Positions 8,731 to 37,843 of a stretch of DNA of 64,000 bases are shown one piece after another (position 1 is the stretch's first letter; each line of letters begins with the position of its first letter). The stretch covers positions 1,243,667 to 1,307,666 of the forward strand of contig JABBOT010000080.1 of assembly GCA_016165875.1 (NCBI GenBank). The letters are read 5' to 3'. A program made the translations under genes and the position numbers. The notes below the pieces were generated by a model. That model saw only the letters and a program-made list of their open reading frames with translations. It did not search any database and was not told where the DNA came from. This stretch comes from Acanthopleura granulata. Taxonomy: Eukaryota > Mollusca > Polyplacophora > Chitonida > Chitonidae.

Positions 8731-9893
8731 AGCCTACGTGACCGCTGTGAACCAATGAGGAATGGTGAAATTACTCTCTCTGACCGCCGCGCTTTTTTGG
8801 CATGCTGCTGCTGCTGCCGGAGTATACAAGCACCGGTATATTTATTTATAAAAACAACTCCTGGAGTACACCCGTGCACTCATTTTTTTTTCTCTTCACC
8901 AATCACCGCTCAGATAATTCCAAGACCATTACTTTCGTTTAGATCCGCGCTGCTGCTGTATAGCCTGTGAGCATTGGTGACAGACGCACAGTCACTCTAC
9001 TGCATTTCTGCGGGAGCTGATTTCACGACAAAAAGCAAGAGAGAGGAAGATTATGGATTCACTCACGGAGATGATTATTCGATTACGGGACTGCCCCAGC
9101 GTAGTGGTACGTACAGGGGACATCGAAACGGATGGACTACCGGTATGGCGATTCTTCATGAAGACCCCCGTGGGGTTCCCGGGAGTGAAAAGAATAGGGC
9201 CCCAGTTCTCTAGGAAGCTTGTCGTACGAGGCGACTAACCTAGGGCTCTCTCAAGTGGTTCCGGTGAATAGAATAGTTCCACAGCCTCCCCGGACTTGTC
9301 GTACAAGGCGACTAAAAGGGGCAACCTGTTTGCCGTGGGTTGCGACCCGTGATGGGGGAAGACGGGATCCTGGTGGCTGAGGGTGGGTTCATCTTGCGAG
9401 ATCCTCACGCCCAACACTCCACTTCGGCCCTTACTTCTCCAAAGACGGGCGGTCGGATGGCCCGCTCCGATCAATCGGCTGGTCACGCCAGTCCAGACGT
9501 CCGGATATCAACCTTCATATATATTCATTTGGTATAGAGTCATTGCTGTCCGTGTTGGAAGTTTTTAAGTCAGATGTTCGGATGTTTGGGCGGTGGCTTT
9601 AGGGTCAATCGAGTAGGTCGTTTCTAATTTATTAGATTCGGCTTGCTCGAGTATGAGCGAAAAACCCATCTTATCGAGGATGGCGTGGAACTCTCGTCTC
9701 TCCTTCTGCTGGTGACTCGCAGGAGGGGTTTCGTCGTACATGTATTGACACTCCGAGGCGGATGAGAGACACGGCGCTATGAATCATCCAACCGTCTCGC
9801 TATGTCTACCTCTAATTCCCCTACTCCAAATGTTTCTATGTCACAGCCTTCCCCAGTTGTGGGAAAAAAAGGAAAAACGAGATACCACTGGAT

Positions 9894-11148
9894 GTGGAAT
9901 CGGGAAGTTCTCACTTCCCATCCTTTCTGGTGATATCTAGTAAAAATGAGAATCAGGCAAAGTTGAAAATCAATCCTTTCGTATTGAATAAAACTTTGAA
10001 GAGCTACGCAGGCACTTTGAAACAAGTGAAAAAGTTAAACTCTGGCAAAATTCTTGTAGAATGTTTTCGAAAACAACAAAACATTAACTTACTCAGAATT
10101 GAAAATATTGGGAAGCAAGCTGTTTCTGTTACCCCACATAAAACCTTAAACTGCTCTCACGGCATCATTCGTGACGGAGACCAAGATCTACACGACATGA
10201 CCGAGCAAGAAATAACAGAGCAACTGAAGGACCAAGGCGTACTCAACGTCAAACGTTTTACCATCAAGAGAGATGGGAACTTCATTAAAACAAATACGTA
10301 TCGCGTAACGTTTAATAACCCGTCTCTCCTAACATCAATGTTCATTGGGCCGTACAGTGTGCTGGTAGAATTATTCATACCTAACCCGACCAGGTGTTTC
10401 TCCTGCCAGAGGTTTGGCCATGGCAGGGGTCAATGCCGAAACAAACTGGTCTGTTTCAGATGTGCGGAAGCTGGTCACGAGGGCTTCGAATGCACAAACA
10501 CCATAAAATGCTGGAATTGCAGCGGAGCCCACATGGCCTCTTCCAAGGATTGCCCTGTCTTCAAAAAGGAAATGGAAATCATAACGCTTAAATGGAAAAA
10601 TAACTTATCGTATCAAGAAGCCAAACGTCTTGTCTCTGTCACCAATGGCCTTACTAAATCTGCCTATGCCAATGTTGTCAAGAAACCCTCCGTTTCGGTA
10701 GGAGTTCAAACATCATTCACTTGGCCCATTGGTATAGAGAAGCCACAGAAACTGGTCGTAAATCCCTTGGAAAACACGACCAGTTCTTCATCACAAACCG
10801 ATATCAATCTTACTGAAAAACCCGCTACTTCATCTAATTCTCCATCTCACCACAAACCTTGTGCAAATAAATACAAATCCTCTAAACCCGTTGAAACCAC
10901 TAAATGCAGCGGGTGATAAACATCACAAGAAAGGTAAACCTAGTGGCCCCACAGAACGTCCCTCCAACTCTACTATGGACCCTATCCGAACTTTCACCAA
11001 GTTTGGGTCGTTGCAGGACGTCGGTCCTTCAACGTTCGATGCGGACATGATGGATACATCATCTGCATCGGGCAGATCTACTAGTAGGTCTCCCAAAAAG
11101 GGTTGTGCACGGTCCAGGCAAAAATCCCCCATACGCCTCCCTCCATAA
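9894..11148 (+). pseudogene. LINE ORF1 (gag-like, three CCHC knuckles), frameshifted
   Basis: ORF1 encodes the RNA-binding chaperone of the retrotransposon particle. Three zinc knuckles lie in tandem at roughly 10392-10560 (CFSCQRFGHGRGQC, CFRCAEAGHEGFEC and CWNCSGAHMASSKDC). The N-terminal part resembles an RNA-recognition-like fold, with ILVECFRKQQ near residue 51. The frame has no ATG. The natural start (ATG at 9802) lies in another frame, shifted by an indel in the A-rich run near 9862-9876. A second frameshift near 10890-10916 ends the frame, and the C-terminal part continues in the frame 10861-11148. Its final TAA overlaps the ORF2 start. Confidence 0.8.
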
Positions 11149-11150
11149 TG
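11146..11150 (+). promoter_or_regulatory. ORF1 stop / ORF2 start overlap TAATG
   Basis: The ORF1 stop TAA (11146-11148) and the ORF2 ATG (11148-11150) share one base. This UAAUG arrangement is known from other LINEs (SART1) to allow stop-restart translation of ORF2. Here it is inferred from position only. Confidence 0.55.
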
Positions 11151-11182
11151 ACTTCCTTAGACAAAAATTATACAGTAGAATT

Positions 11183-14100
11183 GTCGAGGTCTTAAAATAA
11201 ATTTCATTGAAATAACACAGTTAGTTCAATCTTTAAATCCAACTGCCCTCTGTCTTCAGGAAACTCACCTGAAGACATCTGACAAAGATACAATATCACT
11301 GAAAAATTATACACTCTACAACACTTACTCTAATGAGGAAGAGCGAGCTTGTGGCGGCTCCTCTATTTTAGTGAATAATAATATAATTCACAGCCCTGTT
11401 GCTCTCGACACAGAGCTTCAGGCTGTAGCCGTCCGTGTTTCCTTATCGGAAACAATCACTTTATGTTCAGTTTATGTTCCTCCTCATTCTTCTTTGTCAT
11501 TTTGCCAGTTGCATAATTTAAAAGAACAACTGCCAACTCCTTTCATAATTATGGGAGATTTTAATGCGCATAACCCCCTATGGGGTAGTAATAATATAAA
11601 CGATAAGGGCAAAATAGTAGAAGATTTCTTATGTAAAGATGAACTATGTTATTTCAATAATGGTTCTAATACCTACTTACATCCAGGTAATGGTTCATAT
11701 TCTGCCATCGATCTCACCATCACCGATCCATCACTTCTCCCGGATTTTTCTTGGAAGGTGCATGACGATCTTTGTGGTAGTGATCATTTTCCTCTTGTCC
11801 TAGAGCATCTCACTTCTAATTCTTTAGAACACGTAGCTAGGTGGAAGTTCCATAAAGCAGATTGGATGGCATTCGAGATGTTCTGTGAGGCTGACATCAC
11901 TCCAGAGAATATTAATGCTGCAGATGATCCTTTGCTTACATTTAATGAACTCCTATTAACAGCAGCCGATAGAACCATCCCCAAGACCTCGACAAATACC
12001 AAATCCAAAAGTAAACCCTGGTATGATAATGACTGTCGTAAGGCTATAAAAGACCGAAAAAAGGCCGAGCGCAGATTTAATCATTATCCTGATGATAATA
12101 ATTTAAACCAGCTTCGTATACTTGGAGCCAAGTCTCGTCGATTAATTAAGTCCAAGAGACGATCTTGTTGGCGGAACTTCGTTTCAGGCATTACGTCCAA
12201 AACACCCATGCGCAAGGTCTGGAACATGGTTAAGAAACTTAAGGGCAAGAACAGTAAAGCCAGAGTTCAACACTTAAAGGATGGTGATACCTTATTAACT
12301 TCACCACATGATATAGTAAATGAAATAGCTGAAACAATATCCCACAAATCTTCATCTGGGAATTATTCTCCTGAATTCCAGCATATTAAAAACCAGAAGG
12401 AGAAAATTAAATTGCCCTTTTCTTCTAAGAATTTAGAAGACTATAATCGTCCATTTTCAATTGAAGAGCTTAAAACATGTCTAAAAAAGGCACACGATAC
12501 TGCGTGCGGCCCGGATAATATATATTACAAGCTTCTGAACCACTTACCATCTGAGCCATTGGAGACATTCTTGGACCGGTAAATTTCCCCAATCATGGCG
12601 AGAGGCGTATGTTATCCCGGTCCCTAAACCGGGTAAGGATCAGAGTGATCCGAGAAATTACCGTCCCATAGCTCTTACCAGTTGCGTCTGTAAGACTATG
12701 GAACGGATGATAAATGATAGACTTGTTTGGTTTCTTGAAGCCAACATGTTTTTATCAAACATTCAATGTGGTTTTCGTCAAGGTCGATCCACTATGGATC
12801 ACCTTGTTCGATTTGAAACCTTCATTCGTGATGGTTTTATTATTAATGAACATGTGGTATCGATATTTTTCGACTTGGAAAAGGCCTATGACACCACATG
12901 GAAATATGGTATTTTAAAAGACCTTGCTGATATGGGTTTAAAAGGTCGCTTACCTTTATTTATATCTCAGTTTTTATCTGATCGTCAGTTTAAGGTACGA
13001 GTGGGGTCCACTCTTTCGGACTCTTATGAACAAGAGATGGGTGTGCCCCAGGGCAGTATCCTTTCACCAAAACTGTTCAGCACAAAAATTAACAGCTTGG
13101 CTCAAACATTAACATCTGGTATTGAGGGTTGTTTATATGATTTCCTAATATGCTACCGCGCTAAAAATATGAATAACATCGAGCGGCAACTGCAGCTTTG
13201 TCTCAATAAGATCGAGAAATGGGCAGTTGCCAATGGTTTTAGATTTTCTACGTCTAAAACCGTGGGTATGCATTTCTGTAATAAACGCAAACTTCATCTA
13301 GACCCTGAGCTTAAATTTTGTGGTGAACCAGTGAAAATTGTTGGAGAAAATAAATTTTTAGGGGTTATATTCGACAGTAAATTATCCTTTATAGCTCACA
13401 TAAAAATGCTTAAGGCTAAATGTACACAGGCTCTGGATATAATCAAGGTCGTGTCTAGCACTGAGTGGGATGCTGACTGATCAGTTTTACTTAATTTGTA
13501 TCGTTCTCTGGTGAGGTCTAAATTGGACTATGGGTCCATCATTTATGGTTCCGCTAGGAAATCATATCTTAAAATGTTGGATCCGGTCCATCACCAAGGT
13601 CTGAGGCTCAGTCTTGGTGCCTATAGGACCTCACTGGTAGAGAGTTTATACGTAGAGGCTAATGAGCCTTCTTTATATCACAGGCGTATAAAACTCAGCC
13701 TTCAGTACGTCGCTAAGCTTAAAGCTCACCCAACAAACCCTGCCCACGACTGTGTTTTTAGTCCATCATACGCAGATAAATATAATAAATGTCCCAACAA
13801 AATTTCCTCCTTTGGTCTTCGTGTTCGGGACCATATTGTGGATGCTAACATCAAGCTGGAGGACAAAGCTCCGGTTTCTTTCCCGGAGTCTCCTCCCTGG
13901 CTTCTTCCACAGCCTAAATTAATATTTGACCTACGTCAACATAAGAAATCCGATACAAACCCTCTTATAATTCAGCAAAGTTTCGCTGAAGTAAAAGCTA
14001 ATTATCCCCATTATAAATTTATATAAACTGACGGGTCAAAGGATGGGGACAGGGTGGCGCCTGCGGCTGTCTTGGAACAGCGAGTCACCTCTCTTCGCAT

Positions 14101-14803
14101 TCCATCCTCGTCTTCAATATTTTCTGCCGAGGCCAGAGCTATACTTCTGGCTTTATCATACGTTTCATCCGGCGCTGCCAACATCATATGCAGTGACTCG
14201 TTGTCCTGCCTTTTGGCAATAGAGCAAAATAAATTTCCAAAGCCGTTAATACTAGAAATATTAGCCGCCCATAGAAAGCTAATTAAAAGAGGGAAAGATA
14301 TTGTATTCTGTTGGATACCAAGTCATACGGGTATTCACGGAAACACAGTCGCAGACAGGGAAGCGAAAGTTGCTCTTGGTAAACCCATGTCTAAGATTAA
14401 AACTCCTTATACTGACTTTAAATCTAATATTCTTAAATACATTTGTCGCCTTTGGCAGGATGAATGGGACCTGCAGGTCAATAACAAACTGCACGCCATT
14501 CACCCTGTCATAGGCTATGACTCTTATACGTTTGGTATGTCTCGTAGAGACCAAGTGGTTTTAACAAGATGCCGCGTTGGGCATTCTCGTCTAACACACA
14601 ACTTTATCCTGGATGGGGGCAGTGCTCCCAAGTGTGTTGGATGTGATGCGCAGTACGGCATCAAACACATCCTGGTTGACTGTGTGGACTTTGCCCATGT
14701 GCGGCAAAGGTTCTACACAGTAAACTCCGTATATGATTTGTTTGACAGCATCGCTGGCGACGCTGTCATAAAATATTTGAAGGCCATTGACCTTTATCAT
14801 TAA
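11183..14803 (+). pseudogene. LINE ORF2 (AP endonuclease, reverse transcriptase, RNase H), inactivated
   Basis: ORF2 would nick the target, prime reverse transcription and degrade the RNA strand. Endonuclease motifs: NCRGLK at the start, ETHLK, MGDFNAHNPLWGS (~11551) and GSDHFPL (~11778). Reverse transcriptase motifs: FFDLEKAYDTTW and GVPQGSILSPKLF. RNase H motifs: TDGS (~14027), SAEARAI, SDSLS and WIPSHTGIHGN. Breaks seen directly: the ATG frame at 11148 runs into a stop before joining the NCRGL frame; a frameshift or deletion near 12579; the YxDD active-site motif is reduced to LYDFL by an apparent 6-bp deletion (~13136); TGA at 13478-13480; TAA at 14024-14026 just before the RNase H TDGS. 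A cysteine/histidine-rich end (CVGCDAQYGIKHILVDC) closes the protein. Confidence 0.85.

Positions 14804-15239: not shown

Positions 15240-15324
<85 letters not shown>
15240..15324. repeat. (TA)n microsatellite, ~42 units
   Basis: An uninterrupted TA run of about 85 bp, 190 bp beyond the LINE tail and about 50 bp before the left edge of the homeobox array. Long open frames crossing it on both strands (alternating Tyr-Ile) are artefacts. Confidence 0.97.
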
Positions 15325-15327
<3 letters not shown>

Positions 15328-16477
15328 ATAAATACGACACACTATGCTATGAAACTGTATACTTATAATGGTATAATAAGTGTAATGACTCACGCGAAAT
15401 TGTCTTAAACTTATCCCTTCAGAGATGATGAAGCCTTTATGTCGAAGTTCGTCTACATCTAAGGATAAGAGAACTTCATACAAAAGGCACACTTGCTGGT
15501 TAATTGTGTGTGGCTCTCTAAAGTTGTAGCATGCAGTCAGTGAATTCTCCCAGGTTAAAATTTCAAATCGCCAGCCTAACAACAGCAGCTTAGATATTAT
15601 ATATTCCCAATTTTGCACACAGAGAGTGAAAATATTGAAGATTGATTGCGGGTAGCTGACTCTGGTATTGCGTTTAGGCATTGCAAGGTAAAGTAAAGTA
15701 AAATTTAGGCTGTTTTCTAATGGCAGGCTGGTAGACTTTTCTTGTTTCAAATAAGTGAAGAATACATTAAACTGCAGTGATAAGTTTCAAATGGTGTTGA
15801 CGGTCAACCAATGATTTGGCTCGGTGTGAACTGATGCTCACCTTTCCTGGTTTGTTGAGCCTTTGCAGATGTGAAGGTGCTGATGCTTTAGTAACTGTAT
15901 CAGATTCACTTCCCGAACACAATGGGTGGGCGGGCTTGATTGGGGTGGGGATGCGTGCAGTGATTCTATTATTTCTGAAACTGTCTTAAACTGTACACAG
16001 CAGAGGTGATGAAGTCATTATGTCGAAGTTCGTCTACATCTAAGGATGAGAGAACTTCATATACCAGGGTCAATGACTGGATAATTCTGTGTGGTTTAGC
16101 AAGTGGCAATACTTAGTCAATGAATTATTTGATGATGAATATTATAGGCGCAGACCAAATAATATCCTATATTACATGTTCCCAATTTTACATGTAGAAA
16201 GTCCAAGGTTTGATGACTGATTACAAGTAGATATTTCCTTGAGTGGTGGTGGACTCATTTCGTATTGTGCAACATGTATTTTATGTAATGTTTTGCTTTA
16301 AGCTGGCTTAAAACCGTACCCTTCGAGGTTTTGCTTGTTTCAAATAACCGAAGGTGCGTCGGAAATTCGACTACAGTCATCTTCATTTTTTCAACATCAG
16401 ATCATGCAATATCTGAAAAGAATAAAAATTTAACTTTGTGAGGATAACAGGACAAAATCAATCTTCAACTTAACTCG

Positions 16478-16483
16478 TTTTAA
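16478..16483 (-). terminator. Possible poly(A) signal ATTAAA of TALE copy 1
   Basis: On the minus strand an ATTAAA variant lies about 100 nt beyond the TAG stop (16584-16586) and is repeated at the same place in every unit. No canonical AATAAA in the right orientation is closer. Weak evidence on its own. Confidence 0.35.
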
Positions 16484-16583
16484 TATTGTTTTTATCTCGT
16501 TGTTTTCATTAACATGTCGTATTGTAGCACTATAATGACTGAAAAAAGAAAAGCACTGCATTTACAATTGAAAAGGTTTCAAG

Positions 16584-17603
16584 CTACATCATCATAGATC
16601 GCTTCCTCTTAACGCTTGCAATGTGTGTTAAGGACCTGGTATTGGCTGAACGATTCCTCTTGTTGGCAAACCACTTTTTCACTTGTTCCTGAGATAAACC
16701 ACCTGCTCTAGCTAAGCTTTCACTCTCAATGGGTGAAGGGTAAGGATGGTCGATGTGCTGCACGTACCACTGCTCCAACAATCGGATGGATGATTTAGAC
16801 AAAAGGGATCTGGTTCTTAAACCAATAGATCTCCGGGTGATGTGGGCAGCCAAGTCCTGGGCGTCTTTGCTCATAACGGTATGTCCGATGCCACTGTCTT
16901 CTAATAAGGTGACGCTGGTCTCTACCCTGTCTATAATGAGGCCTAGTTCCTGGTCGTAGTAATGGTTTAGAAGCCCTTTCGTCTGGGGCTGTGAGTCGCC
17001 TAGCATAAGACTGCGGTATCTCTCAGTCTCCACTAAGGCTGTCTGGTACTTGTAAAAGTCCTGTAGCTCCCGGACCCTTTCTGGTTGATGGGATTGCAGT
17101 TTATTCAGTCTGCACAACAGTTTGGTCTCTCTGGCTATCATGGGTTCAGACTGAGACAGCAAAGTGCTTTGAAAGAGGTTTACAGGCAAACATCTGTCCT
17201 GGCATTCCATCTCGAGGTCTGTCCTCAAGTCTTTTGGAAGGGCAGGGTATTGTAAAACTGGGTATTGCCAAGACAAGGGCAAATAATCTCCTGGTCGACA
17301 TTCTGTCACAGGGCTGGGGCAACTTTCTGTCTTGACTGTGACCTGCCCCGATTCAAGCTGACAGCGATGATTATCGAGGCCATGGACGGACTCCACTTGG
17401 CTTTTAAATGCTATACTTGATGGTTCAGACTTAATGTCACCCTGGAAATTTTCTTTCGACGTGCAAGGCGACGATATACCGACGAGGTCGCACAGTGTTT
17501 GCAAAACATCTTTGCAAGCGTCATCCTTTGAAATAGTCCTCTCAACGCCTGTAGCTGATTGGGAGCAAAGGTTTTGGTGACTGGAGAAGTTACAAAGTGC
17601 CAT
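16584..17603 (-). CDS. TALE-class homeobox protein, array copy 1 (candidate SPILE gene)
   Basis: Single-exon frame of 339 codons, ATG at 17601-17603, stop TAG at 16584. An in-frame TGA lies three codons upstream, so this ATG is the first possible. The homeodomain is at residues ~261-323: 63 residues with the three-residue TALE insertion, PYP at 287-289, LSQEQVKKWFANKRNR in helix 3 with the invariant W311, F312, N314 and R316, and HD position 50 = Ala. Residues ~160-235 are helical and charged (LLCRLNKLQ, RVRELQDFYKYQTALVETERYR). The N-terminal 110 residues are Ser/Cys-rich with KSEP and KTESCPSP motifs that could be SUMO or phosphorylation sites. A basic tail (KRKR) precedes three Met. No MEIS, PBC, IRO or TGIF motif is seen. 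The likely role is sequence-specific DNA binding in the nucleus. It differs from the other copies by Y119, D129 and S290. SPILE assignment is inference; TALE class is well supported. Confidence 0.88.
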   Translation of the reverse strand: MALCNFSSHQNLCSQSATGVERTISKDDACKDVLQTLCDLVGISSPCTSKENFQGDIKSEPSSIAFKSQVESVHGLDNHRCQLESGQVTVKTESCPSPVTECRPGDYLPLSWQYPVLQYPALPKDLRTDLEMECQDRCLPVNLFQSTLLSQSEPMIARETKLLCRLNKLQSHQPERVRELQDFYKYQTALVETERYRSLMLGDSQPQTKGLLNHYYDQELGLIIDRVETSVTLLEDSGIGHTVMSKDAQDLAAHITRRSIGLRTRSLLSKSSIRLLEQWYVQHIDHPYPSPIESESLARAGGLSQEQVKKWFANKRNRSANTRSLTHIASVKRKRSMMM

Positions 17604-17637
17604 AATAGTTCAGCGATTTGTGCTTAGTTAAATTCCA

Positions 17638-17697
17638 CTTGCAAAAGTGACACTTAAAACTCAATGTCGGTTGGCTTTAAAGCAAGTGGTGTCTTAC
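17638..17697 (-). promoter_or_regulatory. Possible 60-nt 5' UTR intron and CCAAT element upstream of TALE copy 1
   Basis: On the minus strand, CAG|GTAAGAC (junction between 17698 and 17697) is a perfect 5' splice consensus about 95 nt upstream of the ATG. CTTTTGCAAG|TGG (ending at 17638) is a usable acceptor, giving a 60-nt intron in the leader. A CCAAT box (minus strand, 17723-17727) and a TATA-like CTAAATATCA (17741-17750) lie just upstream. All are conserved in each unit, but the units are so recent that conservation proves nothing. Needs transcript evidence. Confidence 0.3.
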
Positions 17698-17764
17698 CTG
17701 CTGAGTAGATAGGAGCAATTTGATTGGTCAGTGAGGTGATTGATATTTAGGCTGAACTGATGAA

Positions 17765-18260
17765 CTCGTTCCATGCGAACTGATGTTCACCTTTCCCGTT
17801 GTGTGGCTTAACATTTGTTAAGGCCTTAAGGCTTTACCAACTGTGGTAGATTTACTAGCCTATAAACTGGGTGGCCGACATGGGGGGTAAGTGTAATGAC
17901 TCACACGAAATTGTCTTAAACTGTTGCCTGCAGAGGTGATGAAGCCATTCTGCTGGAATACGTTTCTGTCAAAGGCTGAGAGCAATTCATATTCCAGGGA
18001 ATATTGCTGGATAAATCTGTGTGGCTTTGGAAAGTGGTAGTATGCAGTCAGTGAATTATCCCAAGTTAAAGATTCCTATCGCCAGCCTAAGAAGAGAAGC
18101 TTACATATTACATATTCCCAATTTTACACACAGGAAGTGAAAATATTGAAGATTGGTTGCAGGTAGCTGGCTCTGGTATTGCGTTTATGCACTGTTTTAC
18201 TTTAGGCTGTCCTCTAATGGTAGGCTAGTAGACTTTCCTTGTTTCAAATAAGTGAAGAAT
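17765..18260. repeat. Upstream duplicated block, proximal copy (in every unit)
   Basis: Begins GAACTGATGTTCACCTTTCC and includes GTGTAATGACTCACACGAAA, GTCTTAAACTG, GCAGAGGTGATGAAGCCATT and CCCAATTTTACA, ending near TTTCCTTGTTTCAAATAA. It aligns in the same orientation with the block at about 18320-18850 at perhaps 60-65% identity. The same pair recurs in each unit, so the duplication predates amplification of the array. Confidence 0.75.
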
Positions 18261-18319
18261 ACATTAAAATGCAGTGATAAGTTTCAAATGGTGTTGACGG
18301 TCAACCAATGATTTGGCTC

Positions 18320-18850
18320 GGTGTGAACTGATGCTCACCTTTCCTGGTTTGTTGAGCCTTTGCAGATGTGAAGGTGCTGATGCTTTAGTAACTGTATCAG
18401 ATTCACTTCCCCAACACAATGGGTGGGCGGGCTTGATTGGGGTGGGGATACGTGCAGTGATTCTATTATTTCTGAAACTGTCTTAAACTGTACACAGCAG
18501 AGGTCATGAAGCCATTATGTCGAAGTTCGTCTACATCTAAGGATGAGAGAACTTCATATACCAGGGTCAATGACTGGATAATTCTGTGTGGTTTAGCAAG
18601 TGGCAATACTTAGTCAATGAATTATTTGATGATGAATATTATAGGCGCAGACCAAATAATATCCTATATTACATGTTCCCAATTTTACATGTAGAAAGTC
18701 CAAGGTTTGATGACTGATTACAAGTAGATATTTCCTTGAGTGGTGATGGACCCATTTCGTATTGTGCAACATGTATTTTATGTAACGTTTTGCTTTAAGC
18801 TGGCTTAAAACCGTACCCTTCGAGGTTTTGCTTGTTTCAAATAACCGAAG
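18320..18850. repeat. Upstream duplicated block, distal copy (in every unit)
   Basis: Diverged partner of 17765-18260: GAACTGATGCTCACCTTTCC, GTCTTAAACTG, GCAGAGGTCATGAAGCCATT, CCCAATTTTACATGTAG and TTGCTTGTTTCAAATAA occur in the same order. It lies immediately downstream of the next gene's 3' end. The 89-codon frame on its minus strand (18614-18883) is broken by TGA in unit 1, so I treat this as non-coding. Confidence 0.75.
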
Positions 18851-19080
18851 GTGCGTCGGAAATTCGACTACAGTCATCTTCATTTTTTCAACATCAGATC
18901 ATGCAATATCTGAAAAGAATAAAAATTTAACTTTGTGAGGATAACAGGACAAAATCAATCTTCAACTTAACTCGTTTTAATATTGTTTTTATCTCGTTGT
19001 TTTCATTAACATGTCGTATTGTAGCACTATAATGACTGAAAAAAGAAAAGCACTGCATTTACAATTGAAAAGGTTTCAAG

Positions 19081-20100
19081 CTACATCATCATAGATCGCT
19101 TCCTCTTAACGCTTGCAATGTGTGTTAAGGACCTGGTATTGGCTGAACGATTCCTCTTGTTGGCAAACCACTTTTTCACTTGTTCCTGAGATAAACCACC
19201 TGCTCTAGCTAAGCTTTCACTCTCAATGGGTGTAGGGTAAGGATGGTCGATGTGCTGCACATACCACTGCTCCAACAATCGGATGGATGATTTAGACAAA
19301 AGGGATCTGGTTCTTAAACCAATAGATCTCCGGGTGATGTGGGCAGCCAAGTCCTGGGCGTCTTTACTCATAACGGTATGTCCGATGCCACTGTCTTCTA
19401 ATAAGGTGACGCTGGTCTCTACCCTGTCTATAATGAGGCCTAGTTCCTGGTCGTAGTAATGGTTTAGAAGCCCTTTCGTCTGGGGCTGTGAGTCGCCTAG
19501 CATAAGACTGCGGTATCTCTCAGTCTCCACTAAGGCTGTCTGGTACTTGTAAAAGTCCTGTAGCTCCCGGACCCTTTCTGGTTGATGGGATTGGAGTTTA
19601 TTCAGTCTGCACAACAGTTTGGTCTCTCTGGCTATCATGGGTTCAGACTGAGACAGCAAAGTGCTTTGAAAGAGGTTTACAGGCAAACATCTGTCCTGGC
19701 ATTCCATCTCTAGGGCTGTCCTCAAGTCTTTTGGAAGGGCAGGGTTTTGTAAAACTGGGTATTGCCAAGACAAGGGCAAATAATCTCCTGGTCGACATTC
19801 TGTCACAGGGCTGGGGCAACTTTCTGTCTTGACTGTGACCTGCCCCGATTCAAGCTGACAGTGATGATTATCGAGGCCATGGACGGACTCCACTTGGCTT
19901 TTAAATGCTATACTTGATGGTTCAGACTTAATGTCACCCTGGAAATTTTCTTTCGACGTGCAAGGCGACGATATACCGACGAGGTCGCACAGTGTTTGCA
20001 AAACATCTTTGCAAGCGTCATCCTTTGAAATAGTCCTCTCAACGCCTGTAGCTGATTGGGAGCAAAGGTTTTGGTGACTGGAGAAGTTACAAAGTGCCAT
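19081..20100 (-). CDS. TALE-class homeobox protein, array copy 2
   Basis: Intact 339-codon frame with the same start context, stop and homeodomain residues as copy 1. The protein has H80, N119, A129 and T290 and is identical to that of copy 6. Compared with copy 1 this replaces an Asp at 129 and a Tyr at 119 outside the homeodomain, and a Ser by Thr directly after PYP inside it. Spacing to copy 1 is 2497 bp with no other gene between, so each copy has its own complete 5' and 3' flank and could be transcribed independently. Confidence 0.88.
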   Translation of the reverse strand: MALCNFSSHQNLCSQSATGVERTISKDDACKDVLQTLCDLVGISSPCTSKENFQGDIKSEPSSIAFKSQVESVHGLDNHHCQLESGQVTVKTESCPSPVTECRPGDYLPLSWQYPVLQNPALPKDLRTALEMECQDRCLPVNLFQSTLLSQSEPMIARETKLLCRLNKLQSHQPERVRELQDFYKYQTALVETERYRSLMLGDSQPQTKGLLNHYYDQELGLIIDRVETSVTLLEDSGIGHTVMSKDAQDLAAHITRRSIGLRTRSLLSKSSIRLLEQWYVQHIDHPYPTPIESESLARAGGLSQEQVKKWFANKRNRSANTRSLTHIASVKRKRSMMM

Positions 20101-21576
20101 AATAGTTCAGCGATTTGTGCTTAGTTAAATTCCACTTGCAAAAGTGACACTTAAAACTCAATGTCGGTTGGCTTTAAAGCAAGTGGTGTCTTACCTGCTG
20201 AGTAGATAGGAGCAATTTGATTGGTCAGTGAGGTGATTGATATTTAGGCTGAACTGATGAACTCGTTCCATGCGAACTGATGTTCACCTTTCCCGTTGTG
20301 TGGCTTAACATTTGTTAAGGCCTTAAGGCTTTACCAACTGTGGTAGATTTACTAGCCTATAAACTGGGTGGCCGACATGGGGGTAAGTGTAATGACTCAC
20401 ACGAAATTGTCTTAAACTGTTGCCTGCAGAGGTGATGAAGCCATTCTGCTGGAATACGTTTCTGTCAAAGGCTGAGAGCAATTCATATTCCAGGGAATAT
20501 TGCTGGATAAATCTGTGTGGCTTTGGAAAGTGGTAGTATGCAGTCAGTGAATTATCCCAAGTTAAAGATTCCTATCGCCAGCCTAAGAAGAGAAGCTTAC
20601 ATATTACATATTCCCAATTTTACACACAGGAAGTGAAAATATTGAAGATTGGTTGCAGGTAGCTGGCTCTGGTATTGCGTTTATGCACTGTTTTACTTTA
20701 GGCTGTCCTCTAATGGTAGGCTAGTAGACTTTCCTTGTTTCAAATAAGTGAAGAATACATTAAAATGCAGTGATAAGTTTCAAATGGTGTTGACGGTCAA
20801 CCAATGATTTGGCTCGGTGTGAACTGATGCTCACCTTTCCTGGTTTGTTGAGCCTTTGCAGATGTGAAGGTGCTGATGCTTTAGTAACTGTATCAGATTC
20901 ACTTCCCCAACACAATGGGTGGGCGGGCTTGATTGGGGTGGGGATACGTGCAGTGATTCTATTATTTCTGAAACTGTCTTAAACTGTACACAGCAGAGGT
21001 CATGAAGCCATTATGTCGAAGTTCGTCTACATCTAAGGATGAGAGAACTTCATATACCAGGGTCAATGACTGGATAATTCTGTGTGGTTTAGCAAGTGGC
21101 AATACTTAGTCAATGAATTATTTGATGATGAATATTATAGGCGCAGACCAAATAATATCCTATATTACATGTTCCCAATTTTACATGTAGAAAGTCCAAG
21201 GTTTGATGACTGATTACAAGTAGATATTTCCTTGAGTGGTGATGGACCCATTTCGTATTGTGCAACATGTATTTTATGTAACGTTTTGCTTTAAGCTGGC
21301 TTAAAACCGTACCCTTCGAGGTTTTGCTTGTTTCAAATAACCGAAGGTGCGTCGGAAATTCGACTACAGTCATCTTCATTTTTTCAACATCAGATCATGC
21401 AATATCTGAAAAGAATAAAAATTTAACTTTGTGAGGATAACAGGACAAAATCAATCTTCAACTTAACTCGTTTTAATATTGTTTTTATCTCGTTGTTTTC
21501 ATTAACATGTCGTATTGTAGCACTATAATGACTGAAAAAAGAAAAGCACTGCATTTACAATTGAAAAGGTTTCAAG

Positions 21577-22588
21577 CTACATCATCATAGATCGCTTCCT
21601 CTTAACGCTTGCAATGTGTGTTAAGGACCTGGTATTGGCTGAACGATTCCTCTTGTTGGCAAACCACTTTTTCACTTGTTCCTGAGATAAACCACCTGCT
21701 CTAGCTAAGCTTTCACTCTCAATGGGTGTAGGGTAAGGATGGTCGATGTGCTGCACATACCACTGCTCCAACAATCGGATGGATGATTTAGACAAAAGGG
21801 ATCTGGTTCTTAAACCAATAGATCTCCGGGTGATGTGGGCAGCCAAGTCCTGGGCGTCTTTACTCATAACGGTATGTCCGATGCCACTGTCTTCTAATAA
21901 GGTGACGCTGGTCTCTACCCTGTCTATAATGAGGCCTAGTTCCTGGTCGTAGTAATGGTTTAGAAGCCCTTTCGTCTGGGGCTGTGAGTCGCCTAGCATA
22001 AGACTGCGGTATCTCTCAGTCTCCACTAAGGCTGTCTGGTACTTGTAAAAGTCCTGTAGCTCCCGGACCCTTTCTGGTTGATGGGATTGGAGTTTATTCA
22101 GTCTGCACAACAGTTTGGGCTATCATGGGTTCAGACTGAGACAGCAAAGTGCTTTGAAAGAGGTTTACAGGCAAACATCTGTCCTGGCATTCCATCTCTA
22201 GGGCTGTCCTCAAGTCTTTTGGAAGGGCAGGGTTTTGTAAAACTGGGTATTGCCAAGACAAGGGCAAATAATCTCCTGGTCGACATTCTGTCACAGGGCT
22301 GGGGCAACTTTCTGTCTTGACTGTGACCTGCCCCGATTCAAGCTGACAGCGATGATTATCGAGGCCATGGACGGACTCCACTTGGCTTTTAAATGCTATA
22401 CTTGATGGTTCAGACTTAATGTCACCCTGGAAATTTTCTTTCGACGTGCAAGGCGACGATATACCGACGAGGTCGCACAGTGTTTGCAAAACATCTTTGC
22501 AAGCGTCATCCTTTGAAATAGTCCTCTCAACGCCTGTAGCTGATTGGGAGCAAAGGTTTTGGTGACTGGAGAAGTTACAAAGTGCCAT
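21577..22588 (-). pseudogene. TALE-class homeobox, array copy 3, frameshifted by an 8-bp deletion
   Basis: Relative to its sister copies this unit lacks 8 bp (TCTCTCTG or an equivalent phasing) near 22118. The frame from the ATG (22586-22588) therefore ends after 164 codons. The first 157 match the family (R80, N119, A129) and the remainder is out of frame. The homeodomain half is still open as a separate frame (21577-22110), but it has no ATG at its start: the first codons are TTG TGC AGA, and the next in-frame ATG lies well downstream. Everything else in the unit is intact. The result would be a truncated protein without a DNA-binding domain, or a short homeodomain-only protein if an internal ATG were used. 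The deletion removes part of a CT-rich run, so a sequencing or assembly error is also possible. Confidence 0.85.
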
Positions 22589-24065
22589 AATAGTTCAGCG
22601 ATTTGTGCTTAGTTAAATTCCACTTGCAAAAGTGACACTTAAAACTCAATGTCGGTTGGCTTTAAAGCAAGTGGTGTCTTACCTGCTGAGTAGATAGGAG
22701 CAATTTGATTGGTCAGTGAGGTGATTGATATTTAGGCTGAACTGATGAACTCGTTCCATGCGAACTGATGTTCACCTTTCCCGTTGTGTGGCTTAACATT
22801 TGTTAAGGCCTTAAGGCTTTACCAACTGTGGTAGATTTACTAGCCTATAAACTGGGTGGCCGACATGGGGGGTAAGTGTAATGACTCACACGAAATTGTC
22901 TTAAACTGTTGCCTGCAGAGGTGATGAAGCCATTCTGCTGGAATACGTTTCTGTCAAAGGCTGAGAGCAATTCATATTCCAGGGAATATTGCTGGATAAA
23001 TCTGTGTGGCTTTGGAAAGTGGTAGTATGCAGTCAGTGAATTATCCCAAGTTAAAGATTCCTATCGCCAGCCTAAGAAGAGAAGCTTACATATTACATAT
23101 TCCCAATTTTACACACAGGAAGTGAAAATATTGAAGATTGGTTGCAGGTAGCTGGCTCTGGTATTGCGTTTATGCACTGTTTTACTTTAGGCTGTCCTCT
23201 AATGGTAGGCTAGTAGACTTTCCTTGTTTCAAATAAGTGAAGAATACATTAAAATGCAGTGATAAGTTTCAAATGGTGTTGACGGTCAACCAATGATTTG
23301 GCTCGGTGTGAACTGATGCTCACCTTTCCTGGTTTGTTGAGCCTTTGCAGATGTGAAGGTGCTGATGCTTTAGTAACTGTATCAGATTCACTTCCCCAAC
23401 ACAATGGGTGGGCGGGCTTGATTGGGGTGGGGATACGTGCAGTGATTCTATTATTTCTGAAACTGTCTTAAACTGTACACAGCAGAGGTGATGAAGCCAT
23501 TATGTCGAAGTTCGTCTACATCTAAGGATGAGAGAACTTCATATACCAGGGTCAATGACTGGATAATTCTGTGTGGTTTAGCAAGTGGCAATACTTAGTC
23601 AATGAATTATTTGATGATGAATATTATAGGCGCAGACCAAATAATATCCTATATTACATGTTCCCAATTTTACATGTAGAAAGTCCAAGGTTTGATGACT
23701 GATTACAAGTAGATATTTCCTTGAGTGGTGATGGACCCATTTCGTATTGTGCAACATGTATTTTATGTAACGTTTTGCTTTAAGCTGGCTTAAAACCGTA
23801 CCCTTCGAGGTTTTGCTTGTTTCAAATAACCGAAGGTGCGTCGGAAATTCGACTACAGTCATCTTCATTTTTTCAACATCAGATCATGCAATATCTGAAA
23901 AGAATAAAAATTTAACTTTGTGAGGATAACAGGACAAAATCAATCTTCAACTTAACTCGTTTTAATATTGTTTTTATCTCGTTGTTTTCATTAACATGTC
24001 GTATTGTAGCACTATAATGACTGAAAAAAGAAAAGCACTGCATTTACAATTGAAAAGGTTTCAAG

Positions 24066-25085
24066 CTACATCATCATAGATCGCTTCCTCTTAACGCTTG
24101 CAATGTGTGTTAAGGACCTGGTATTGGCTGAACGATTCCTCTTGTTGGCAAACCACTTTTTCACTTGTTCCTGAGATAAACCACCTGCTCTAGCTAAGCT
24201 TTCACTCTCAATGGGTGTAGGGTAAGGATGGTCGATGTGCTGCACATACCACTGCTCCAACAATCGGATGGATGATTTAGACAAAAGGGATCTGGTTCTT
24301 AAACCAATAGATCTCCGGGTGATGTGGGCAGCCAAGTCCTGGGCGTCTTTACTCATAACGGTATGTCCGATGCCACTGTCTTCTAATAAGGTGACGCTGG
24401 TCTCTACCCTGTCTATAATGAGGCCTAGTTCCTGGTCGTAGTAATGGTTTAGAAGCCCTTTCGTCTGGGGCTGTGAGTCGCCTAGCATAAGACTGCGGTA
24501 TCTCTCAGTCTCCACTAAGGCTGTCTGGTACTTGTAAAAGTCCTGTAGCTCCCGGACCCTTTCTGGTTGATGGGATTGGAGTTTATTCAGTCTGCACAAC
24601 AGTTTGGTCTCTCTGGCTATCATGGGTTCAGACTGAGACAGCAAAGTGCTTTGAAAGAGGTTTACAGGCAAACATCTGTCCTGGCATTCCATCTCTAGGG
24701 CTGTCCTCAAGTCTTTTGGAAGGGCAGGGTTTTGTAAAACTGGGTATTGCCAAGACAAGGGCAAATAATCTCCTGGTCGACATTCTGTCACAGGGCTGGG
24801 GCAACTTTCTGTCTTGACTGTGACCTGCCCCGATTCAAGCTGACAGCGATGATTATCGAGGCCATGGACGGACTCCACTTGGCTTTTAAATGCTATACTT
24901 GATGGTTCAGACTTAATGTCACCCTGGAAATTTTCTTTCGACGTGCAAGGCGACGATATACCGACGAGGTCGCACAGTGTTTGCAAAACATCTTTGCAAG
25001 CGTCATCCTTTGAAATAGTCCTCTCAACGCCTGTAGCTGATTGGGAGCAAAGGTTTTGGTGACTGGAGAAGTTACAAAGTGCCAT
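24066..25085 (-). CDS. TALE-class homeobox protein, array copy 4
   Basis: Intact 339-codon frame. The protein has R80 like copies 1 and 3, but N119, A129 and T290 like copies 2, 5 and 6, so it shares variants with non-neighbouring units. The homeodomain is identical to copies 2, 3, 5 and 6. Its upstream flank carries private differences from its neighbours, such as GGCATAACATTTG in place of GGCTTAACATTTG near 25289, showing that it is a real separate unit rather than an assembly duplicate. Confidence 0.88.
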   Translation of the reverse strand: MALCNFSSHQNLCSQSATGVERTISKDDACKDVLQTLCDLVGISSPCTSKENFQGDIKSEPSSIAFKSQVESVHGLDNHRCQLESGQVTVKTESCPSPVTECRPGDYLPLSWQYPVLQNPALPKDLRTALEMECQDRCLPVNLFQSTLLSQSEPMIARETKLLCRLNKLQSHQPERVRELQDFYKYQTALVETERYRSLMLGDSQPQTKGLLNHYYDQELGLIIDRVETSVTLLEDSGIGHTVMSKDAQDLAAHITRRSIGLRTRSLLSKSSIRLLEQWYVQHIDHPYPTPIESESLARAGGLSQEQVKKWFANKRNRSANTRSLTHIASVKRKRSMMM

Positions 25086-26562
25086 AATAGTTCAGCGATT
25101 TGTGCTTAGTTAAATTCCACTTGCAAAAGTGACACTTAAAACTCAATGTCGGTTGGCTTTAAAGCAAGTGGTGTCTTACCTGCTGAGTAGATAGGAGCAA
25201 TTTGATTGGTCAGTGAGGTGATTGATATTTAGGCTGAACTGATGAACTCGTTCCATGCGAACTGATGTTCACCTTTCCCGTTGTGTGGCATAACATTTGT
25301 TAAGGCCTTAAGGCTTTACCAACTGTGGTAGATTTACTAGCCTATAAACTGGGTGGCCGACATGGGGGGTAAGTGTAATGACTCACACGAAATTGTCTCA
25401 AACTGTTGCCTGCAGAGGTGATGAAGCCATTCTGCTGGAATACGTTTCTGTCAAAGGCTGAGAGCAATTCATATTTCAGGGAATATTGCTGGATAAATCT
25501 GTGTGGCTTTGGAAAGTGGTAGTATGCAGTCAGTGAATTATCCCAAGTTAAAGATTCCTATCGCCAGCCTAAGAAGAGAAGCTTACATATTACATATTCC
25601 CAATTTTACACACAGGAAGTGAAAATATTGAAGATTGGTTGCAGGTAGCTGCCTCTGGTATTGCGTTTATGCACTGTTTTACTTTAGGCTGTCCTCTAAT
25701 GGTAGGCTAGTAGACTTTCCTTGTTTCAAATAAGTGAAGAATACATTAAAATGCAGTGATAAGTTTCAAATGGTGTTGACGGTCAACCAATGATTTGGCT
25801 CGGTGTGAACTGATGCTCACCTTTCCTGGTTTGTTGAGCCTTTGCAGATGTGAAGGTGCTGATGCTTTAGTAACTGTATCAGATTCACTTCCCGAACACA
25901 ATGGGTGGGCGGGCTTGATTGGGGTGGGGATACGTGCAGTGATTCTATTATTTCTGAAACTGTCTTAAACTGTACACAGCAGAGGTCATGAAGCCATTAT
26001 GTCGAAGTTCGTCTACATCTAAGGATGAGAGAACTTCATATACCAGGGTCAATGACTGGATAATTCTGTGTGGTTTAGCAAGTGGCAATACTTAGTCAAT
26101 GAATTATTTGATGATGAATATTATAGGCGCAGACCAAATAATATCCTATATTACATGTTCCCAATTTTACATGTAGAAAGTCCAAGGTTTGATGACTGAT
26201 TACAAGTAGATATTTCCTTGAGTGGTGATGGACCCATTTCGTATTGTGCAACATGTATTTTATGTAACGTTTTGCTTTAAGCTGGCTTAAAACCGTACCC
26301 TTCGAGGTTTTGCTTGTTTCAAATAACCGAAGGTGCGTCGGAAATTCGACTACAGTCATCTTCATTTTTTCAACATCAGATCATGCAATATCTGAAAAGA
26401 ATAAAAATTTAACTTTGTGAGGATAACAGGACAAAATCAATCTTCAACTTAACTCGTTTTAATATTGTTTTTATCTCGTTGTTTTCATTAACATGTCGTA
26501 TTGTAGCACTATAATGACTGAAAAAAGAAAAGCACTGCATTTACAATTGAAAAGGTTTCAAG

Positions 26563-27582
26563 CTACATCATCATAGATCGCTTCCTCTTAACGCTTGCAA
26601 TGTGTGTTAAGGACCTGGTATTGGCTGAACGATTCCTCTTGTTGGCAAACCACTTTTTCACTTGTTCCTGAGATAAACCACCTGCTCTAGCTAAGCTTTC
26701 ACTCTCAATGGGTGTAGGGTAAGGATGGTCGATGTGCTGCACATACCACTGCTCCAACAATCGGATGGATGATTTAGACAAAAGGGATCTGGTTCTTAAA
26801 CCAATAGATCTCCGGGTGATGTGGGCAGCCAAGTCCTGGGCGTCTTTACTCATAACGGTATGTCCGATGCCACTGTCTTCTAATAAGGTGACGCTGGTCT
26901 CTACCCTGTCTATAATGAGGCCTAGTTCCTGGTCGTAGTAATGGTTTAGAAGCCCTTTCGTCTGGGGCTGTGAGTCGCCTAGCATAAGACTGCGGTATCT
27001 CTCAGTCTCCACTAAGGCTGTCTGGTACTTGTAAAAGTCCTGTAGCTCCCGGACCCTTTCTGGTTGATGGGATTGGAGTTTATTCAGTCTGCACAACAGT
27101 TTGGTCTCTCTGGCTATCATGGGTTCAGACTGAGACAGCAAAGTGCTTTGAAAGAGGTTTACAGGCAAACATCTGTCCTGGCATTCCATCTCTAGGGCTG
27201 TCCTCAAGTCTTTTGGAAGGGCAGGGTTTTGTAAAACTGGGTATTGCCAAGACAAGGGCAAATAATCTCCTGGTCGACATTCTGTCACAGGGCTGGGGCA
27301 ACTTTCTGTCTTGACTGTGACCTGCCCCGATTCAAGCTGACAGTGATGATTATCGAGGCCATGGACGGACTCCACTTGGCTTTTAAATGCTATACTTGAT
27401 GGTTCAGACTTAATGTCGCCCTGGAAATTTTCTTTCGACGTGCAAGGCGACGATATACCGACGAGGTCGCACAGTGTTTGCAAAACATCTTTGCAAGCGT
27501 CATCCTTTGAAATAGTCCTCTCAACGCCTGTAGCTGATTGGGAGCAAAGGTTTTGGTCACTGGAGAAGTTACAAAGTGCCAT
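26563..27582 (-). CDS. TALE-class homeobox protein, array copy 5
   Basis: Intact 339-codon frame. Unique H9D change (SSDQN instead of SSHQN), from a single base change at 27558 (GGTCACTGG in place of GGTGACTGG on the plus strand), plus a synonymous change near 27418 (GTCGCC for GTCACC). It carries H80, N119, A129 and T290. The homeodomain is unchanged. Upstream, TATTTAAGGTGAAC (27723-27736) replaces the TATTTAGGCTGAAC of units 1-4; the same variant occurs upstream of copy 6. Confidence 0.88.
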   Translation of the reverse strand: MALCNFSSDQNLCSQSATGVERTISKDDACKDVLQTLCDLVGISSPCTSKENFQGDIKSEPSSIAFKSQVESVHGLDNHHCQLESGQVTVKTESCPSPVTECRPGDYLPLSWQYPVLQNPALPKDLRTALEMECQDRCLPVNLFQSTLLSQSEPMIARETKLLCRLNKLQSHQPERVRELQDFYKYQTALVETERYRSLMLGDSQPQTKGLLNHYYDQELGLIIDRVETSVTLLEDSGIGHTVMSKDAQDLAAHITRRSIGLRTRSLLSKSSIRLLEQWYVQHIDHPYPTPIESESLARAGGLSQEQVKKWFANKRNRSANTRSLTHIASVKRKRSMMM

Positions 27583-29059
27583 AATAGTTCAGCGATTTGT
27601 GCTTAGTTAAATTCCACTTGCAAAAGTGACACTTAAAACTCAATGTCGGTTGGCTTTAAAGCAAGTGGTGTCTTACCTGCTGAGTAGATAGGAGCAATTT
27701 GATTGGTCAGTGAGGTGATTGATATTTAAGGTGAACTGATGAACTCGTTCCATGCGAACTGATGTTCACCTTTCCCGTTGTGTGGCTTAACATTTGTCAA
27801 GGCCTTAAGGCTTTACCAACTGTGGTAGATTTACTAGCCTATAAACTGGGTGGCCGACATGGGGGGTAAGTGTAATGACTCACACGAAATTGTCTTAAAC
27901 TGTTGCCTGCAGAGGTGATGAAGCCATTCTGCTGGAATACGTTTCTGTCAAAGGCTGAGAGCAATTCATATTCCAGGGAATATTGCTGGATAAATCTGTG
28001 TGGCTTTGGAAAGTGGTAGTATGCAGTCAGTGAATTATCCCAAGTTAAAGATTCCTATCGCCAGCCTAAGAAGAGAAGCTTACATATTACATATTCCCAA
28101 TTTTACACACAGGAAGTGAAAATATTGAAGATTGGTTGCAGGTAGCTGGCTCTGGTATTGCGTTTATGCACTGTTTTACTTTAGGCTGTCCTCTAATGGT
28201 AGGCTAGTAGACTTTCCTTGTTTCAAATAAGTGAAGAATACATTAAAATGCAGTGATAAGTTTCAAATGGTGTTGACGGTCAACCAATGATTTGGCTCGG
28301 TGTGAACTGATGCTCACCTTTCCTGGTTTGTTGAGCCTTTGCAGATGTGAAGGTGCTGATGCTTTAGTAACTGTATCAGATTCACTTCCCCAACACAATG
28401 GGTGGGCGGGCTTGATTGGGGTGGGGATACGTGCAGTGATTCTATTATTTCTGAAACTGTCTTAAACTGTACACAGCAGAGGTCATGAAGCCATTATGTC
28501 GAAGTTCGTCTACATCTAAGGATGAGAGAACTTCATATACCAGGGTCAATGACTGGATAATTCTGTGTGGTTTAGCAAGTGGCAATACTTAGTCAATGAA
28601 TTATTTGATGATGAATATTATAGGCGCAGACCAAATAATATCCTATATTACATGTTCCCAATTTTACATGTAGAAAGTCCAAGGTTTGATGACTGATTAC
28701 AAGTAGATATTTCCTTGAGTGGTGATGGACCCATTTCGTATTGTGCAACATGTATTTTATGTAACGTTTTGCTTTAAGCTGGCTTAAAACCGTACCCTTC
28801 GAGGTTTTGCTTGTTTCAAATAACCGAAGGTGCGTCGGAAATTCGACTACAGTCATCTTCATTTTTTCAACATCAGATCATGCAATATCTGAAAAGAATA
28901 AAAATTTAACTTTGTGAGGATAACAGGACAAAATCAATCTTCAACTTAACTCGTTTTAATATTGTTTTTATCTCGTTGTTTTCATTAACATGTCGTATTG
29001 TAGCACTATAATGACTGAAAAAAGAAAAGCACTGCATTTACAATTGAAAAGGTTTCAAG

Positions 29060-30079
29060 CTACATCATCATAGATCGCTTCCTCTTAACGCTTGCAATGT
29101 GTGTTAAGGACCTGGTATTGGCTGAACGATTCCTCTTGTTGGCAAACCACTTTTTCACTTGTTCCTGAGATAAACCACCTGCTCTAGCTAAGCTTTCACT
29201 CTCAATGGGTGTAGGGTAAGGATGGTCGATGTGCTGCACATACCACTGCTCCAACAATCGGATGGATGATTTAGACAAAAGGGATCTGGTTCTTAAACCA
29301 ATAGATCTCCGGGTGATGTGGGCAGCCAAGTCCTGGGCGTCTTTACTCATAACGGTATGTCCGATGCCACTGTCTTCTAATAAGGTGACGCTGGTCTCTA
29401 CCCTGTCTATAATGAGGCCTAGTTCCTGGTCGTAGTAATGGTTTAGAAGCCCTTTCGTCTGGGGCTGTGAGTCGCCTAGCATAAGACTGCGGTATCTCTC
29501 AGTCTCCACTAAGGCTGTCTGGTACTTGTAAAAGTCCTGTAGCTCCCGGACCCTTTCTGGTTGATGGGATTGGAGTTTATTCAGTCTGCACAACAGTTTG
29601 GTCTCTCTGGCTATCATGGGTTCAGACTGAGACAGCAAAGTGCTTTGAAAGAGGTTTACAGGCAAACATCTGTCCTGGCATTCCATCTCTAGGGCTGTCC
29701 TCAAGTCTTTTGGAAGGGCAGGGTTTTGTAAAACTGGGTATTGCCAAGACAAGGGCAAATAATCTCCTGGTCGACATTCTGTCACAGGGCTGGGGCAACT
29801 TTCTGTCTTGACTGTGACCTGCCCCGATTCAAGCTGACAGTGATGATTATCGAGGCCATGGACGGACTCCACTTGGCTTTTAAATGCTATACTTGATGGT
29901 TCAGACTTAATGTCACCCTGGAAATTTTCTTTCGACGTGCAAGGCGACGATATACCGACGAGGTCGCACAGTGTTTGCAAAACATCTTTGCAAGCGTCAT
30001 CCTTTGAAATAGTCCTCTCAACGCCTGTAGCTGATTGGGAGCAAAGGTTTTGGTGACTGGAGAAGTTACAAAGTGCCAT
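29060..30079 (-). CDS. TALE-class homeobox protein, array copy 6
   Basis: Intact 339-codon frame, with a protein identical to copy 2 (H80, N119, A129, T290). It is the upstream-most gene of the array. Its own 5' flank is complete for about 400 bp, then loses ~48 bp (near 30480) and diverges before ending at ~30928. The proximal promoter region shared by all units is intact, but part of the duplicated upstream block is missing. If that block carries enhancers, this copy could be expressed differently. Confidence 0.88.
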   Translation of the reverse strand: MALCNFSSHQNLCSQSATGVERTISKDDACKDVLQTLCDLVGISSPCTSKENFQGDIKSEPSSIAFKSQVESVHGLDNHHCQLESGQVTVKTESCPSPVTECRPGDYLPLSWQYPVLQNPALPKDLRTALEMECQDRCLPVNLFQSTLLSQSEPMIARETKLLCRLNKLQSHQPERVRELQDFYKYQTALVETERYRSLMLGDSQPQTKGLLNHYYDQELGLIIDRVETSVTLLEDSGIGHTVMSKDAQDLAAHITRRSIGLRTRSLLSKSSIRLLEQWYVQHIDHPYPTPIESESLARAGGLSQEQVKKWFANKRNRSANTRSLTHIASVKRKRSMMM

Positions 30080-30928
30080 AATAGTTCAGCGATTTGTGCT
30101 TAGTTAAATTCCACTTGCAAAAGTGACACTTAAAACTCAATGTCGGTTGGCTTTAAAGCAAGTGGTGTCTTACCTGCTGAGTAGATAGGAGCAATTTGAT
30201 TGGTCAGTGAGGTGATTGATATTTAAGGTGAACTGATGAACTCGTTCCATGCGAACTGATGTTCACCTTTCCCGTTGTGTGGCTTAACATTTGTTAAGGC
30301 CTTAAGGCTTTACCAACTGTGGTAGATTTACTAGCCTATAAACTGGGTGGCCGACATGGGGGGTAAGTGTAATGACTCACACGAAATTGTCTTAAACTGT
30401 TGCCTGCAGAGGTGATGAAGCCATTCTGCTGGAATACGTTTCTGTCAAAGGCTGAGAGCAATTCATATTCCAGGGAATATTATCCCAAGTTAAAGATTCC
30501 TATCGCCAGCCTAAGAAGAGAAGCTTACATATTACATATTCCCAATTTTACACACAGGAAGTGAAAATATTGAAGATTGGTTGCAGGTAGCTGGCTCTGG
30601 TATTGCGTTTATGCACTGTTTTACTTTAGGCTGTCCTCTAATGGTAGGCTAGTAGACTTTCCTTGTTTCAAATAAGTGAAGACTACATTAAAATGCAGTG
30701 ATAAGTTTCAAATGGTGTTGACGGTCAACCAATGATTTGGCTCGGTGTCAACTGATGTTCACCTTTCCTGGTTTGTTGAACTTTTACAGATGTGAAGGTG
30801 TTGATGCTTTAGTAACTGTATCAGATTCACTTCCCGAACAGAATGGATGGGTGGGGGTGATTGGGGTGAGATACGTGCAGTGACTCTATTATTTATGAAG
30901 CTGTCTTAAACTGTTCACTGCAGAGGTG

Positions 30929-37532: not shown

Positions 37533-37843
37533 GTAAATAAACTCTGACCGACTGGTTGTTTCCACGTTACCACGGACACAGGAGAGACCGCTACACGGCC
37601 AGCCTATACAGGAATAGCTACGGGCACTGGACATCGTTCATCGCACGACGCACCGAACAACGGTCAACGCCTGTTTCAGCGAACCCTTACAGCCTGTGCC
37701 ACAGTGGACAAACCTCACAAAAACGGTAACCTGCGTAAAGGACCGTTGTGTATAATACATATGTATAGCACACACGAAACATTAATTTTCTTGATTCGCA
37801 TAAGCCAGTAAGGGCATTTATACATGCTATGCTTCGGTGAACT

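Follow-up and report, generated by a model that had tools for sequence, protein, structure and literature searches.

In spiral cleavage, lineage-specific factors encoded by the SPILE genes help to set the fates of blastomeres. The closest described systems to the locus studied here are the SPILE-A/C tandem sets of molluscs. In its accessible text, Phuangphong et al. 2021 (PMC8524836) describes eight near-identical tandem A/C-clade homeodomains in the limpet Lottia gigantea (LgTALEHD 21, 22 and 29–34), seven near-identical A/C homeodomains on one scaffold in the chiton Acanthopleura granulata and local A/C pairs or groups in abalone and vent snail. According to the same text, the A/C duplications are mostly independent and lineage-specific, and zygotic expression of the A/C and B genes starts at the 4–16-cell stage. 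Here, we describe a tandem array of TALE homeobox genes in a 64,000-nucleotide stretch of contig JABBOT010000080.1 (positions 1,243,667 to 1,307,666; the whole stretch is referred to as the window). The array probably arose recently, through lineage-specific tandem duplication of one SPILE-A/C-type gene, that is, an orphan spiralian TALE gene, in a mollusc.

The array resembles the Lottia and chiton sets in its TALE homeodomain and in the near identity of its copies, which are tandem in Lottia and on one scaffold in the chiton. It is unlike the A/C genes of bivalves, which, as far as described in PMC8524836, are of diverse homeodomain types and lie in many cases outside tandems. The original prediction made for this DNA had considered near-identical homeobox arrays to be rare; this premise is weakened by the published SPILE-A/C arrays of limpet and chiton. 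The present array is an informative further example and does not constitute a new class. The accessible descriptions of the Lottia and chiton arrays do not state how long the unit is, whether introns are present, whether the frames are intact or how the edges are built, and the new contribution is the unit-level anatomy, namely a 2.5-kb unit, a single-exon coding sequence (CDS), five intact copies and one broken copy, a homogenised core and diverged edges.

Structure of the array and divergence of its copies

The array occupies positions 15377–30928 and contains ~6.2 units of ~2,497 bp, as delimited by self-BLAST edges and spacing. Six units of 2,489–2,497 bp, each consisting of upstream sequence, a single-exon CDS and a spacer, are arranged head to tail with all genes on the minus strand. 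The gene starts are located at positions 17603, 20100, 22588, 25085, 27582 and 30079; four of the five start-to-start intervals measure 2,497 bp and the remaining one 2,488 bp. The head-to-tail arrangement on the minus strand with a period of ~2,497 bp, proposed in the original prediction, is borne out by these data. Searches of the rest of the 64-kb window found no further copies of the unit (blastn, E ≤ 1e-3) or of the protein (tblastn, E ≤ 1).

Intact open reading frames (ORFs) of 339 codons are present in five of the six copies: copy 1 (16584–17603), copy 2 (19081–20100), copy 4 (24066–25085), copy 5 (26563–27582, with the variant H9D) and copy 6 (29060–30079). Copy 3 (21577–22588) has lost 8 nucleotides (nt) after codon 157; reading from the ATG stops at codon 165, and the homeodomain lies in another frame. 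Thus, five of the six complete frames claimed earlier were confirmed. The assignment of the CDS to a single exon is well supported by the sequence, since the open frame of the intact copies starts just two codons upstream of the ATG and a search of the copy 6 CDS gave no MAGGTRAG donor. The genes had been described as intronless, which holds for the coding part; introns in the untranslated regions are possible, because a donor-like site, CAGGTAAGAC, is found ~96 bases upstream of the ATG and a pyrimidine-rich acceptor-like stretch ~30–45 nt past the stop.

Copies 2–6 are very similar. Pairwise differences amount to 0–3 nt in the CDS, 0–6 of ~399 nt upstream and 0–3 of 1,078 nt downstream, which corresponds, indels aside, to an identity of 99.52–99.96% between units, and the CDSs of copies 2 and 6 are identical. 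Copy 1 differs from copies 2–6 in 7–10 nt of the CDS, 0–3 nt upstream and 41–42 of 1,064 nt downstream, with 28 additional gap columns. The downstream change lies mostly within the last ~300 nt, at the edge of the array. Over 307 bp, this diverged left edge of unit 1 (15377–15700) shares ~81% identity with an inner unit. At the opposite end, a partial seventh unit (30479–30928) consists of 450 bp of spacer, ~95.6% identical to the inner units by self-BLAST. The homogenised centre, the diverged edges and the leftover partial unit match the expected trace of unequal crossing-over, and from this we infer that such a process made the array and maintains it.

Ten codons vary among the five intact copies, with five synonymous and five replacement changes distributed over 222 synonymous and 795 replacement sites. 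The synonymous excess (one-sided binomial p = 0.046) gives a weak indication of purifying selection among the copies.

Several other features were noted in and beside the array. Each unit carries an older internal duplication of ~150 bp in the spacer, ~77% identical by self-BLAST (e.g., 17907–18059 and 18474–18625). A spacer ORF of 94 codons (28593–28877) was set aside as a gene candidate, as no Pfam family matched it at E values up to 0.1. At 15240–15324, a perfect (AT)42.5 tract ends 52 bp short of the left edge of the array; the junction there may be fragile or difficult to assemble.

The homeodomain and its relation to TALE families

Copies 1 and 6 were scanned against Pfam, and matches were listed up to E = 1. 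Copy 1 matched Homeobox_KN (PF05920, 3.3e-14) and Homeodomain (PF00046, 1.9e-8), with a similar result for copy 6, where the homeodomain covers about residues 261–318 (Homeobox_KN 279–318; positions 29126–29299, minus strand). The loop residues PYP (287–289) and the residues W311, N314 and R316 are invariant across the five intact copies. Hence, the homeodomain with these residues was predicted correctly, and it has the features by which the TALE class is recognised, a three-residue loop extension (PYP) and a WF.N.R recognition helix. A C-terminal KRKR basic cluster is also present. Each of the two scanned proteins has a single homeodomain, and SPILE-B is characterised by two. Matches to YdaS_toxin and Med26 (E 0.12–0.15, below the cut-off) were read as noise. 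Among the PDB matches were the homeodomains of PKNOX1, EXD/PBX1, MEIS, yeast MATalpha2 and TGIF, with PKNOX1 and EXD the best and SIX1 and DUX4 weaker. A five-copy AlphaFold2 model had a mean predicted local distance difference test score (pLDDT) of 47, and only its homeodomain match was used. The modelled homeodomain superposes on EXD and MEIS2 with a TM-score by target of 0.88–0.89 (no Foldseek E ≤ 0.001), and the fold also matches the TGIF1 homeodomain.

The homeodomain was compared with ten reference homeodomains, two of which (IRX1 and MKX) are provisional sequences. The identity to the ten references is 28–40%, the best being MKX (24/60, with the provisional sequence), and lies at 32–35% for PBX/EXD and 33–36% for MEIS/PKNOX (PBX1, EXD, MEIS1 and PKNOX1). 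Since eight of the ten references are 31–71% identical to each other, the query is about as distant from them as separate families are. No PBC or MEIS_PKNOX_N companion domain was among the Pfam matches of copies 1 and 6, so that the N-terminal domains characteristic of the PBC and MEIS/PKNOX families were not detected; Pfam presumably includes models for both. The recognition helix reads QVKK-WFANKRNR, with QVKK at 307–310, and lacks the ARRR helix end of IRX, MKX and TGIF (WF[AI]NARRR in the references used, with IRX1 and MKX provisional). At what we take to be homeodomain positions 50, 52 and 53, the alignment shows A50, which the IRX1 and MKX references share, and K52-R53, which PBX shares. 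The QVKK motif occurs in none of the ten references. The query is set apart from the canonical families by the missing companion domains, the low identity and the QVKK motif, and not by the tree.

It is this motif that points to SPILE-A/C. QVKK is described in the accessible text of PMC5322547 as conserved or semiconserved within the mollusc-restricted TALE clade VI. Of the Crassostrea/Pinctada TALE clades VI and VII, it is clade VI that shares QVKK with the query, and the Lottia set shows the same likeness, as three Lottia sequences were first assigned to clade VI. These three were moved in 2018 to TALE-XV and TALE-XVII, beside NfSPILE-C and NfSPILE-A, respectively, in a study (PMC6118893) whose accessible part reports PADRE homology in all TALE-XV/XVII members with adequate coverage and a SPILE clade recovered with low support. 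The presence of QVKK therefore relates the query to clade VI-related SPILE-A/C genes, although the motif is no formal definition of them. The near-identical tandem copies have their precedent in limpet and chiton, which is likewise not strictly defining. The PADRE domain of SPILE-A/C is described, in the partial accounts available, as a region of ~87–90 residues N-terminal to the homeodomain. In copy 6, an 88-residue region, 153–240 (29360–29623, minus strand), ends ~20 residues before the homeodomain; residues 153–236 are mostly predicted to be helical, with low pLDDT. By position and size, this region would fit a PADRE-like domain and is regarded as a candidate. Overall, membership in the SPILE group is likely.

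Several points weigh against this assignment. The comparison with SPILE and PADRE is one with published descriptions, and a motif of four residues can recur by chance. The 11-row tree joins the query to the long MATalpha2 branch (85/79), and the 10-row tree without MATalpha2 places it weakly with PBX/EXD (50/56). Approximately unbiased (AU) tests reject none of the placements tried (MEIS+PKNOX, 0.368; TGIF, 0.178; IRX+MKX, 0.195). One copy in six is broken, and the signal of selection among the copies is weak. Of the tree suggested in the original prediction as a check, the part with canonical TALE homeodomains gave no stable placement and no firm grouping within a canonical family. What stands of the SPILE candidacy is the orphan-looking homeodomain, the missing PBC/MEIS domain, QVKK and the tandem precedent; trees and AU tests place nothing.

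No viral relatives were found in one viral contig scan (four pattern matches). In a prokaryotic contig scan, 26 stretches fitted the search pattern and one aligned match was obtained, in a Devosia metagenome-assembled genome (34% identity over residues 115–195). In the Devosia sequence, 77 residues can be read without a stop, among them the exact search octapeptide EMECQDRC. This match was judged to be due to chance, because it does not touch the homeodomain and was retrieved by the octapeptide itself.

Alternative explanations and putative function

The strongest alternative is that the array is a mostly non-functional macrosatellite, which captured one functional homeobox gene and spread by passive unequal crossing-over, so that the extra copies are recent, neutral and decaying. 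The frameshift in copy 3 and the older duplication within the spacer are in line with such turnover. In addition, 8 of 1,020 CDS sites differ between copies 1 and 2 against 7 in the adjoining 800 nt; the CDS is not clearly better conserved than the adjacent spacer and, therefore, neutral expansion stays compatible with the data. On the other hand, the frames are intact in five copies, and the synonymous excess, weak as it is, goes in the direction of selection. We consider this explanation possible but rather doubtful. It is compatible with SPILE identity, so our confidence in the two readings overlaps.

Less readily, the gene that expanded in tandem could belong to an orphan spiralian TALE clade outside SPILE-A/C (e.g., TALE-I, TALE-XIII or a genus-specific one), with a role perhaps later in development. 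In the accessible text of PMC6118893, transcriptome sequences termed non-SPILE are assigned to TALE-I, -XIII and -X, and multi-copy genus-specific clades do exist, such as the 15 Helobdella TALE-XIX B–P (inside or outside SPILE); the trees obtained here place the query nowhere firmly. However, QVKK points to clade VI, and in the available part of PMC8524836 it is SPILE-A/C for which near-identical tandem sets are described, which makes this origin unlikely.

Alternatively, a canonical TALE gene (PBX, MEIS or PKNOX) could have given rise to a diverged retrocopy, free of introns and of the companion domain, whose later amplification produced the array; the single-exon CDS agrees with this. The PDB search ranked PKNOX1 and EXD highest, the AU tests allow canonical placements, and in the 10-row tree the query leans weakly towards PBX/EXD. 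On the other side, the homeodomain is just 32–36% identical to PBX1, EXD, MEIS1 and PKNOX1, neither a PBC nor a MEIS domain was among the Pfam matches listed, and no poly-A tract adjoins the ATTAAA located 100 nt past the stop in the sequence examined; this origin is very improbable. Inflation of one gene or a short array by misassembly or unmerged haplotypes, to which the identical CDSs of copies 2 and 6 and the 99.5–99.96% identity of units 2–6 might point, is still harder to accept, as plain duplication of one sequence would not be expected to yield substitutions peculiar to copies 1, 4 and 5, the loss of 8 nt from copy 3, an outer unit that has diverged or edge fragments of ~80–96% identity.

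Under the SPILE-A/C reading, unequal crossing-over would generate the array and then keep it homogenised. The product of each intact copy would be a nuclear protein that binds DNA, with a TALE homeodomain and the C-terminal KRKR cluster, and all copies together would provide nearly one and the same protein. If the published SPILE-A/C genes of molluscs are a guide, zygotic expression might start at the 4–16-cell stage, and the factor might help to specify blastomere tiers or quadrants.

A comparable organisation is known from D4Z4/DUX4, an intronless homeobox ORF that lies in a head-to-tail repeat unit of kilobase size and is associated with activity at cleavage stages. DUX4 contains two PRD-class homeodomains, compared with one TALE homeodomain here, and the likeness is one of workings, with no homology beyond the fold. 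It is a speculative, rather unlikely idea that the array is a functional homeobox macrosatellite, in which concerted evolution keeps identical intronless SPILE-type genes in order to provide enough of a blastomere-specifying factor in a very short early cell cycle. If true, it would represent an independently reached spiralian counterpart of D4Z4/DUX4 or of the tandem histone genes. An array described at the level of its units allows one to ask whether the repeated independent SPILE-A/C expansions were selected for dosage or reflect neutral macrosatellite turnover.

Other features of the window

A search for RNA genes in the window gave no Rfam matches at the gathering score. A non-long-terminal-repeat retrotransposon at 9816–14803 (plus strand) contains endonuclease (Exo_endo_phos_2), reverse transcriptase (RVT_1) and RNase H regions, which are distributed among several frames; its first ORF (9816–10916) has no Pfam match. 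A BEL/Pao-type retroelement at 37841–43994 (plus strand) contains Peptidase_A17, DUF5641 and an integrase core just below the cut-off. Its parts lie in several ORFs, of which the first three have no Pfam match.

An exon-like ORF at 62317–62604 (minus strand) matches DUF4604, which we take to be a KIAA1143-like family, with 28 bits, exactly at the cut-off of 28, and is perhaps part of a host gene. The ORF at 774–1391 (minus strand), with a fibronectin type III domain and a hydrophobic stretch, is perhaps an exon of a membrane protein. Short-period satellites are located at 2645–3146 (28-bp units), 60617–60990 (25 bp) and 62846–63277 (66 bp).

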